A stretch of DNA of 10,335 bases from an uncultured Nitrosomonadales bacterium (GTDB lineage: Bacteria > Pseudomonadota > Gammaproteobacteria > Burkholderiales > Gallionellaceae). The translations under genes were made by a program, and so were the position numbers. Positions 1-10,335 of this stretch are shown here, piece after piece. The notes beneath the pieces are model-generated. The model was not told where the DNA came from. It ran no database searches and saw only the letters and a list, made by a program, of their open reading frames with translations. The stretch's first letter is position 1, and the number at the start of each line of letters is the position of its first letter. The stretch is from NCBI GenBank assembly GCA_903934275.1, contig CAIZNF010000031.1, positions 1-10,335 on the forward strand, written 5' to 3'.

Positions 1-827
1 AGAAATAGCGCGCGCAGCCACAGAGCCCGATCCGGCGGTGTCACGGCGGCGATGCTTTCCGCCGCCATCGAGTATGCCCATGAGTATGCGATGGTGCTGT
101 CGCCGCTCACACGCCCTGCAAGTTTTGCGCCCTGCTGTAATGTCAGGCTCTCGAAGCGTTTCTCGACACCCTTATGCGTGTAGCCTAAACGCTCTTCGAG
201 GCGCAGCACCTTTTCTCCCATCACGGAAAAACGGAAATGCCCCGGCTCGATGATGCCTGCATGTATCGGTCCGACCGGAATTTCATGCACGCCCTGTCCT
301 TCCACCCGCACGAACGGATAGGCATCCGGCTCGATACAAATGCTTTTCATCCCGTTCTCCGCAGGAGAATGAACGTTGGCCTCCTCTCCCTCCGGGTGAG
401 GATTGAGGTGGGGGTCGCTCTTGAAATCCTTGCGCAACGGAAAGCTGCCGCTGTGCCACGCGCCGTGGCGCACCCATTTACGGTGATCGTGGCCTTCGTG
501 TGCGAAAATGCCGAGCAGGTCATATGCCGCACGTTGCATCCGGCTGGCCGCCGGAAAAATTCGGCTGATATCTGGATAGACAGGCTGCACGGCATCCAAA
601 GCCATGCTCAAACAAATCAAACCGGCCTCATTGACCAGCGCAACGTGCAATGTGAAACCGTTACCCTGCTTGCGGGCATCGCCGCCCCACAACGCTACCA
701 GCCGCCCGCCGCCGTCGGCTACGTTTTGGCAAATCGGCAGTAAATCGCCCGGTTTGATCTCGCCCAGCCAAGCTGGAATTGCGCCGTCCAGCTTGGTCAA
801 ATGTAGGTTGGGATGTGTGATGGGCAT
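1..827 (-). CDS. hyfG: HyfG-like NuoCD-type large subunit of an Ehr complex (3' end cut by the window)
   Basis: The visible 275 residues are the N-terminal part of a fused NuoC/NuoD-like protein, homologous to the catalytic large subunit of group 4 [NiFe] hydrogenases (HycE/HyfG). Residues 1-~130 form the 30-kDa (NuoC-like) domain, with a family-like stretch from FPAASRMQRA (91-100) to about 121. Residues ~165 onward are the 49-kDa domain, with GPIHAGIIEPGHFRF at 187-201 and LRLEERLGYTHKG at 208-220. Hydrogenases have RxCGxC at the first metal-binding site. Here the aligned stretch is RVSGDS, so both cysteines are serines (S241, S244; codons 105-107 and 96-98). That argues against a NiFe centre and for an energy-converting hydrogenase-related subunit. 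The linker at about 138-149 is a translated palindromic repeat. The ATG at 827 lies 6 nt after the hyfF stop, with a weak GGGATAG purine tract upstream. The second metal-binding motif and the C-terminus are off the window. Confidence 0.9.
   Translation of the reverse strand, partial: MPITHPNLHLTKLDGAIPAWLGEIKPGDLLPICQNVADGGGRLVALWGGDARKQGNGFTLHVALVNEAGLICLSMALDAVQPVYPDISRIFPAASRMQRAAYDLLGIFAHEGHDHRKWVRHGAWHSGSFPLRKDFKSDPHLNPHPEGEEANVHSPAENGMKSICIEPDAYPFVRVEGQGVHEIPVGPIHAGIIEPGHFRFSVMGEKVLRLEERLGYTHKGVEKRFESLTLQQGAKLAGRVSGDSTIAYSWAYSMAAESIAAVTPPDRALWLRALF
381..417. repeat. GC-rich palindromic repeat inserted in frame in hyfG
   Basis: Positions 383-401 (CCTCTCCCTCCGGGTGAGG) fold as CCTC, one mismatch, CCC, a 3-nt loop, then GGG and GAGG on the other strand. 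Read in the hyfG frame, the element gives DPHLNPHPEGEE (residues 138-149), which resembles the 'PHPNPLPEGEG' translation of a dispersed palindrome common in proteobacterial genomes. It sits in the flexible linker between the NuoC-like and NuoD-like domains, where an insertion would be tolerated. The resemblance to that repeat family is recalled, not searched. Confidence 0.5.
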
Positions 828-9219: not shown

Positions 9220-9474
9220 ATGAAAGAAATTCTGCAATTTCTAAAAAAACATGGTGAGAGTCTCGATGCGGAGATAGCGGTGGCAACGGGTATCCCGCTT
9301 GGCAAGGTGCGCCTCCATTTGTCTGAGCTTGCTGCCAAAAATGAGGTTGTGGTGTGCCACAAGACCACGTTTGAAAACGGTAAGAAAATCAAGGGAATAA
9401 CTTGCCGGGTGGCCGGGTTTATTCCTCCTGCTGCACCGGGCCGAAAATCAAAGGCTCAGTTGAATTTATCGTAG
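9220..9474 (+). CDS. Small winged helix-turn-helix DNA-binding protein
   Basis: An 84-residue protein. MKEILQFLKKHGESLDAEI forms the first helix region, AEIAVATGIPLGKVRLHLSEL (residues about 17-37) is a helix-turn-helix, and ENGKKIKGITCRV is consistent with the wing. A basic, proline-rich tail (PPAAPGRKSKAQ) follows. The layout fits the minimal winged-helix regulators of ArsR/MarR-like folds, without a metal-binding or effector domain. An AAGGGA purine tract lies upstream of the ATG at a long spacing. The stop is 68 nt before the spermidine-synthase-like gene, so the two may be co-transcribed. The target is unknown. Confidence 0.7.
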   Translation: MKEILQFLKKHGESLDAEIAVATGIPLGKVRLHLSELAAKNEVVVCHKTTFENGKKIKGITCRVAGFIPPAAPGRKSKAQLNLS

Positions 9475-9542
9475 CTCCTCGCCCGTTGAAGAATAATCAG
9501 TTGAAAAAAGCTGCACAGAGGATTCAGCAACAGGTTGAAAAG

Positions 9543-10335
9543 ATGCTTGGGCGGACGGCAGAATCTGAAAAGAAAATTGTGGCGGGCAAACCTTATCTAA
9601 AAAAACGCAAAAATACCCTTTCGATGCATTTTGATGCTTTGTCAATACAAAGCGAGATGTCCATTAATCTGCCGGATGAGCTGGTTTTCAGTTACACCAA
9701 AACCATGATGAGTTTTTTGCTGTTCGAGCCATCGCCGAAACGCATCACCATGATAGGGTTAGGTGGCGGGTCGCTGGCTAAATATTGCTACCGATATTTG
9801 CCTCAGGCAGAAATCACCACTATTGAAATCAATCCCGATGTGATCGCGCTGCGTAATGAATTTGCAATCCCTGCCGACGATGCGCGCTTTAATGTGTTGC
9901 TGGGTGATGGAGCAGTGTTCGTGGCAGGTGCATCAATGCAGACAAATGTGCTGATTGTGGACGGGTTCGATGCGGACGGGTTACCTGCACAATTGAGCAG
10001 TCAGCAGTTTTACGATGACTGCTTTGCGGCGTTGGCTGACAATGGCATCATGGTGGTCAATTTGTGGTGCGGCTACACGCCATGTGATAAATATTTGGCG
10101 CGCATCCACAACAGTTTTGCCGGTAGCCTGGTAACTGTTGATGCGGAAGACAGCCCCAACAAAATTGTTATCGCATCAAAAAGTACAGAGTTCCCGCCCC
10201 CTTTATCCACCATACGACATCATGCCAAATTACTTTGCTTGTCGCATCCGTTGAATTTTCAAGCAAAGTCCAACAAGCTGATTCGGGCCTTACCTGACAC
10301 TCAATGCAAAGCTACAGACCAACTTGGTTGTAGGG
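9543..10335 (+). CDS. Spermidine-synthase-fold protein, 3' end cut by the window
   Basis: At least 264 residues, still open at the right edge. The nucleotide-binding motif MIGLGGGSLAKYCYRYLP begins at residue 70, an acidic residue (E95 in IEINPDV) would hold the SAM ribose, and VDGFD (D140, D143) is the counterpart of the catalytic DSTD of polyamine aminopropyltransferases. VVNLWCG follows. The canonical GGGDGG is GGGSLA here, so one Asp involved in polyamine binding in true SpeE is absent. I therefore call it spermidine-synthase-like rather than a polyamine synthase; many proteobacteria carry such paralogues of unknown substrate. The start is uncertain: ATG at 9543 has an AGG 8 nt upstream, but the frame is open further back with TTG codons at 9501 and 9486. 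No transmembrane segment is visible. Confidence 0.8.
   Translation, partial: MLGRTAESEKKIVAGKPYLKKRKNTLSMHFDALSIQSEMSINLPDELVFSYTKTMMSFLLFEPSPKRITMIGLGGGSLAKYCYRYLPQAEITTIEINPDVIALRNEFAIPADDARFNVLLGDGAVFVAGASMQTNVLIVDGFDADGLPAQLSSQQFYDDCFAALADNGIMVVNLWCGYTPCDKYLARIHNSFAGSLVTVDAEDSPNKIVIASKSTEFPPPLSTIRHHAKLLCLSHPLNFQAKSNKLIRALPDTQCKATDQLGCR

Follow-up and report, generated by a model that had tools for sequence, protein, structure and literature searches.

What complex is encoded by an operon that resembles that of hydrogenase 4, when its large subunit has lost cysteine ligands of the NiFe centre? This question is raised by contig CAIZNF010000031.1 of an uncultured Nitrosomonadales bacterium of the Gallionellaceae, which was analysed over its entire 10,335 bases (C31, here the window) and belongs to a draft genome of 722 contigs and 94% completeness. 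The large subunit, HyfG, is homologous to those of group 4 hydrogenases, having HycE of formate hydrogenlyase 1 (FHL-1) as its closest solved relative. A preliminary description of the window had noted that the first cysteine pair is missing and had assigned the complex to the energy-converting hydrogenase-related (Ehr) group, and both statements hold: HyfG reads GRVSGDST, with Ser241 and Ser244 flanking Asp243, where HyfG and HycE from Escherichia coli read RVCGIC, and, as described below, all four NiFe ligands are gone. Judging from the sequence, the complex is almost certainly Ehr and not a hydrogenase.

Completion of HyfG and HyfI

As hyfG is cut by the contig end, the second motif had to be read elsewhere, an extension that the preliminary description had proposed as a check. 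Contig C500 of the same genome overlaps the window start by 17 bases and continues hyfG in frame, its part of the protein having the C-terminal end NIVPDFPLINKSFNLSYSGQDL. The joined HyfG has 538 amino acids, the last residues being NKSFNLSYSGQDL, and lacks both a CxxC and a C-terminal extension, its translation stopping at the end point of mature hydrogenase large subunits. NLSYSGQDL stands in place of DPCYSCTDR, which means that the C-terminal ligand pair is also missing. The four ligand positions are occupied by S241, S244, S532 and G535, with neither the RxCGxC nor the DPCxxC of group 4 enzymes. The join is supported by a database protein (P0001, on a 15,255-bp contig, possibly from the same sample) that is 100% identical to the joined HyfG; the nearest named relatives belong to Gallionella and Gallionellaceae.

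The next gene on C500 is hyfI, which brings the subunits to six (HyfB, C, E, F, G and I); a NuoH-like subunit, antiporter-like membrane subunits and a small Fe-S subunit are encoded in one operon. HyfB, HyfC, HyfE and HyfF are intact, as stated earlier, according to family matches and conserved charged pump residues. It had also been anticipated that annotation pipelines would name this complex hydrogenase 4, and two NCBIfam models for that enzyme do pass their cut-offs, with 877 bits against 543 for HyfF and 930 against 667 for HyfB. Since Ehr is common and curated models score it as hydrogenase 4, hydrogen metabolism is easily over-predicted.

Loss of the metal ligands among homologues

The first motif is RVSGDS in 112 of the best 120 homologues listed, RVSGDT in 3, RASGDT in 1 and RISGDS in 1, three others (P0024, P0080, P0107) lying outside the motif pattern used; none of the 120 has a cysteine in its last 15 residues. 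Because 112 homologues share RVSGDS, the motif of the window is not a sequencing slip. A comparison set of 77 HyfG sequences longer than 380 amino acids, from 80 genome loci, gives the same picture, the four ligand positions being free of cysteine in 69 sequences, with 7 others having one and a single protein (L022) four. The C-terminal extension of E. coli HyfG and HycE occurs in none of the 77. The former ligand positions are variable (S/C/A/V, S/T/C/A and S/A/N/C), while neighbouring residues are nearly invariant: Asp243 in 76/77, Asn526 in 76/77, Lys527 in 76/76 and Arg479 in 77/77. The only sequence without Asp243 is the one that bears all four cysteines (CCCC, L022). According to the alignment, and not to a measured distance, Asp243 and Lys527 may fill the former metal pocket.

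Ehr was found by profile search in 46 of 150 sampled genomes of the order (G000, G011, G126 and G131 being counted by split or partial matches), and each copy read carries at most one cysteine at the ligand positions, 44 of the 46 genomes being seen at all four and G011 and G126 at two. Two loci carry tandem Ehr operons, of subtypes NKSFNLSYSG and NKSVNGSYSG, the edge of L102 cutting its first hyfB (Table 1).

The loss of active-site ligands could also mark a decaying remnant without function. Against this, no internal stop was seen among the matches listed (50 rows), homologues occur in Pseudomonadota, Acidobacteriota, Nitrospirota and Myxococcota, 70 HyfG columns reach at least 98.5% identity over the 77 sequences, and Fe-S and pump residues are conserved, making decay scarcely credible.

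Fe-S cluster, ion path and missing electron wire

HyfI retains four conserved Fe-S ligands, that is, one [4Fe-4S] site. Regarding the remainder of an electron wire, neither HyfH, HyfA, formate dehydrogenase (FdhF) nor maturation genes are present in the hyfBCEFGI operon, which is complete in 44 runs among the 80 loci, many loci being cut by contig ends. In a tblastn search of 139 loci, including the window and C500, E. coli HyfH and NuoI queries matched only the outgroup operons of L022 (also represented by L145 and L147) and L039, and places in L100 lying 9-10 kb away from the operon, and the HyfA query found one ferredoxin-like stretch (L007), outside the operon. As no HyfH or HyfA was found in operons of the window type, their complex appears to contain just one Fe-S cluster.

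No redox partner was seen among the recurrent neighbours annotated around the 80 loci, where the flanking-gene scan covered 59 proteins and the best 25 of 70 families. Formate dehydrogenase, carbon monoxide dehydrogenase and ferredoxin were rejected as partners, as no conserved co-directional gene of this kind accompanies the operon; a carbon monoxide dehydrogenase adjoins it in one comammox Nitrospira (PMC5596200), and none was met in the loci studied here. In several gammaproteobacteria a small gene precedes hyfB; it was also dismissed as a subunit, being a conserved gene for an XRE-type helix-turn-helix protein of 80-90 amino acids and likely a regulator (Table 1).

These observations bear on whether the complex, with unusual ligands, might yet work as a hydrogenase or within a formate hydrogenlyase. 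The kinship with HycE would favour this, as would the greater abundance of the Ehr subunits of Geobacter sulfurreducens on formate than under hydrogen-containing conditions (PMC7894505). However, the four thiolate ligands are replaced by residues that vary, there is neither a protease-cleaved C-terminal peptide nor a HyfH/HyfA wire or FdhF in the operon, and the HydDB classification rates the large subunit of the Acidithiobacillus ferrooxidans hyfBCEFGI as non-hydrogenase (PMC7735108); thus a NiFe hydrogenase is very unlikely. The earlier suggestion to look for hyp genes nearby proved a weak check. HypD is encoded elsewhere in the window genome, which fits the other hydrogenases (Hox, Hya, HupUV) reported in the Gallionellaceae pangenome (PMC10734462), but 19 of the order's 46 Ehr genomes, 15 of them at least 90% complete, gave no HypD, so Ehr seems not to need the NiFe assembly line.

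Proposed mode of action

Overall, a six-subunit Ehr complex with electron-driven ion movement is the favoured reading, held with moderate confidence. Its parts differ in strength: ion translocation is probable, and a drive by electrons from a soluble donor is an even call. The earlier claim that the complex pumps ions by a redox reaction goes further than the sequence shows: pump residues and one [4Fe-4S] site are conserved, but neither a HyfH/NuoI-like protein nor a conserved partner dehydrogenase beside the operon was found. By analogy with complex I and group 4 hydrogenases, on which the coupling is modelled, a soluble low-potential carrier would dock directly on HyfI, and the electrons would travel from its single cluster to a small acceptor that occupies the vacated HyfG/HyfC cavity, lined by Asp243, Asn526, Lys527, Arg479 and Glu194; the resulting conformational change could then move H+ or Na+ through HyfC, HyfE, HyfF and HyfB.

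Several observations weigh against this favoured reading. The single cluster of HyfI has no visible donor, and the absence of HyfH would also suit a complex driven by something other than electrons; at E 1e-3, E. coli queries could miss a divergent HyfH. HypD is present in the genome, and the residues at the former ligand positions, being variable, were rejected as new metal ligands. The C-terminal residues 534-538 of the HyfG model have low confidence, so the pocket geometry is putative. Finally, at what we take to be the columns of two quinone-site residues (Tyr and His) of the 49-kDa subunit, the window protein has Gly242 and Ile193 in place of the Tyr and His of E. coli NuoCD, with Gly in 76/77 and Ile193 in 77/77 of the aligned HyfG sequences; as both quinone residues are gone, a quinone reaction of the complex I type is unsupported.

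A cysteine-bearing sister and a possible order of losses

The CCCC protein comes from Betaproteobacteria bacterium NC_groundwater_730, where a sister operon of BCEFG order is located directly before a Cys-less Ehr operon. Its large subunit shares the Ehr-type Lys527, Asn526, Glu182 and Ile193, but it retains RICGVC and ELCYSCTDR, has Val at the Asp243 position and is encoded with a HyfH-HyfI fusion. It bears all four cysteines and yet no C-terminal extension. As HypD has no match in this genome, hydrogenase activity may be lacking even in the CCCC protein. A very divergent second Ehr-like large subunit, still followed by a HyfH-like stretch, was met in L039.

A quick 49-row tree was built, with NuoD as root, SH-aLRT (a Shimodaira-Hasegawa-like approximate likelihood-ratio test) as its only support measure and no Geobacter or archaeal Ehr among its rows. 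In it, the Ehr rows cluster with L022 and L039, to the exclusion of E. coli HyfG and HycE (98). L022, with its cysteines and fusion, is the first branch (remaining rows supported at 98), followed by L039, which has no cysteine at the four positions and still has HyfH (remaining rows 92); the branch of L039 (3.97) and the root on NuoD are flagged as long-branch risks. At face value, this topology would mean that the ligands were lost first and HyfH second. The sister is new, and it suggests that the path to Ehr involved losing the metal site as well as the electron wire, the sister marking a likely starting point.

Relation to known systems

The window Ehr is known in kind. In the available passages of the respective reports, Ehr large subunits without ligand motifs are described for Sulfobacillus, with six syntenic genes nearby (PMC4378227), comammox Nitrospira (PMC10284858), Margulisbacteria and relatives (PMC6349859), ammonia-oxidising archaea (PMC10432482) and, by a HydDB call, the At. 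ferrooxidans hyfBCEFGI (PMC7735108); an Ehr cluster is described in Geobacter (PMC7894505), and a Nitrospira hyfBCEFGI operon was interpreted as a group 4 hydrogenase (PMC5596200). Where these passages address the function of Ehr, it is called unknown, uninvestigated or suspected. As far as they go, no essential difference was found between the window copy and the Ehr of Geobacter, Sulfobacillus, comammox Nitrospira and At. ferrooxidans, with which it shares hyfBCEFGI or six syntenic genes and the loss of RxCGxC and DPCxxC. Judged by title and abstract opening, none of the literature matches listed treats Ehr in Gallionellaceae.

Compared with E. coli hydrogenase 4 (HyfA-J) and FHL-1 (HycB-G), HyfB, C, E, F, G and I are homologous, with HycE as the best fold match; E. 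coli HyfG, however, has CCCC and a 32-residue C-terminal tail, and the E. coli operon adds HyfA, HyfD, HyfH and HyfJ, none of which occurs in the six-gene Ehr operon. The C-terminal part of HyfG also matches MbhL of Pyrococcus (62 bits), from the Mbh/Mbx (MBS) systems; no Mbh or MBS chain stands among the best 50 rows of the VIA table, which excludes nothing. MBS keeps part of the cysteines and has a NuoI-like subunit.

What is added here is the loss of both motifs, the missing wire, the Cys-bearing sister and the neighbourhood of SulP transporters and carbonic anhydrase discussed below. The role of Ehr is a question raised in several papers, as seen in their available parts, and it becomes testable through the lost redox wire, the sister and this neighbourhood, which offers a concrete substrate candidate.

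SulP, gamma-carbonic anhydrase and a possible link to inorganic carbon

At least 10 of the order's 46 Ehr genomes have a gene for a SulP-type anion transporter no more than 15 kb from HyfG, where 1.05 would be expected (p 3e-8, assuming random gene placement and independent genomes, although related genomes are not independent; six families, f15, f21, f35, f43, f45 and f50, are involved); an earlier separate set shows SulP in 9/80 loci. The SulP gene is directly upstream of hyfB in five loci (L099, L107, L108, L109, L113), and in L099 (genome G014) SulP and hyfBCEFGI are followed by two other genes and then by LysR and RuBisCO. In addition, 11 Ehr genomes encode a Cam/CcmM-type gamma-carbonic anhydrase with its three zinc-histidine motifs (among them VVIHC, VVIHS in some, and an intact IAHRSIVHGP). 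In 6 of them, from four families, the gene is about 12 kb or less from HyfG, and in the other 5 it is on another contig; this 6/11 (nominal p 6e-10) is biased and no clean test, as the seven loci behind the profile were picked for adjacency, six of them being from the same genomes. The anhydrase is also near Ehr in L020 and L025. Three SulP clusters contain this carbonic anhydrase (Table 1), together with a histidine kinase in L105 and L109, a sigma-54 regulator in L109 and TauE in L105; in genome G043 it is about 1.5 kb from RuBisCO.

Taken together, the linkage to SulP (six families of the order) and to gamma-carbonic anhydrase (four of the six) is new and hints at inorganic carbon. No link of Ehr to either gene is described in the literature matches listed, by title and abstract opening, and the available passages on Nitrospira marina describe SulP and gamma-carbonic anhydrase genes and contain no Ehr (PMC8115632). 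One explanation would be an energised uptake of inorganic carbon, in which Ehr acts with both partners through an ion gradient for HCO3- uptake or a one-way CO2 hydration, as in cyanobacterial NDH-1MS and DAB2, where complex I-like membrane subunits are linked to CO2 hydration (PMC13144422, in the part available). The likeness would be functional only, as no DabA- or CupA-like gene was seen in the operon: none of the six genes encodes a CO2-hydrating subunit, DabA (PF10070) and CupA not having been searched by model.

Against this explanation, SulP and gamma-carbonic anhydrase are neither on the window contig nor on C500 (tblastn), the genome has no such anhydrase at E 1e-40, and none of 20 loci elsewhere in the class, whose HyfG all have at most one of the four cysteines, shows SulP or carbonic anhydrase (tblastn). 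Co-occurrence of carbonic anhydrase and Ehr is not significant (11/46 against 13/104 genomes, p 0.09). RuBisCO, with RuBisCO-like proteins excluded by the cut, accompanies Ehr over genomes (29/46 against 28/104, p 4.6e-5), but a tie to autotrophy was rejected, as p is 0.65 when stratified by family (4 informative families) and 0.05 at family level, with a family label for 144 of the 150 genomes. SulP and carbonic anhydrase are also paired without Ehr in G080, G106 and G121, and the SulP tested, with 131 bits against the curated BicA cut-off of 880, is thus not BicA and could carry sulfate. Moreover, Ehr occurs in Granulicella and Rhodanobacter, which are not known to be autotrophs. Carbon uptake is therefore unlikely as the general explanation, and the link gives a clue for a part of the Ehr family without defining the role of Ehr at large. 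Still more improbable is a gated ion machine for inorganic carbon instead of an electron-fed relic, in which, with NiFe site and HyfH wire both gone, the emptied Asp/Lys-lined HyfG pocket would bind CO2 or HCO3- and SulP and gamma-carbonic anhydrase would be partners, as a chemolithotroph counterpart of the NDH-1MS CO2 pump.

Gene arrangement and neighbouring genes

Table 1. Features of the window, of contig C500 and of other loci (positions without a prefix refer to the window)
Feature	Position	Strand	Remarks
hyfG, Ehr large subunit (NuoC+NuoD-like), N-terminal 275 amino acids	1..827, open reading frame 3..827	-	cut by contig end
GRVSGDST, former first NiFe cysteine pair, S241 and S244, D243 in between	93..116	-	
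RVSGDS, core of the HyfG motif	96-113	-	
hyfF, antiporter-like membrane subunit, 485 amino acids	834..2291	-	PF00361 E 3e-52; NF005045 877 bits
hyfE, small membrane subunit, 220 amino acids	2522..3184	-	NF008556 E 2.4e-25, 89.7 bits, cut-off 136 not reached
hyfC, NuoH/HycD-like membrane subunit, 320 amino acids	3204..4166	-	PF00146 E 1.9e-35
hyfB, antiporter-like membrane subunit, 669 amino acids	4163..6172	-	PF00361 E 2.7e-51; NF005086 930 bits
Protein of 550 amino acids	7427-9079	+	SEC-C motif, TPR array, methyltransferase domain
Spermidine synthase-like gene	9402-10334	+	PF01564
hyfG remainder	L004:8173-8979	-	contig C500
hyfI, next after hyfG	L004:7610-8170	-	GSCNGCE, GDCGC, SGCPP
Sister operon	L022:1977-4428; L147:12416-19501		G150:C93
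Divergent Ehr-like large subunit	L039:1503-2996		
Tandem Ehr operons	L102:5-13323; L031:4792-19521		
SulP and gamma-carbonic anhydrase clusters	L105:1829-10267; L109:913-8521; L113:9430-19864		
XRE-type gene before hyfB	L084:4221-4490; L134:6457-6729; L136:13365-13607; L143:13438-13707		

On C500, hyfI is followed by a convergent gene, presumably COX15-like, and by further genes beyond it. The neighbours metG, dnaE, dcd and the spermidine synthase-like gene were set aside as functional partners and judged to reflect chromosomal synteny. The spermidine synthase-like gene of the window recurs near the Ehr operon in 13/80 loci, with two class loci, L140 and L142, as further cases.
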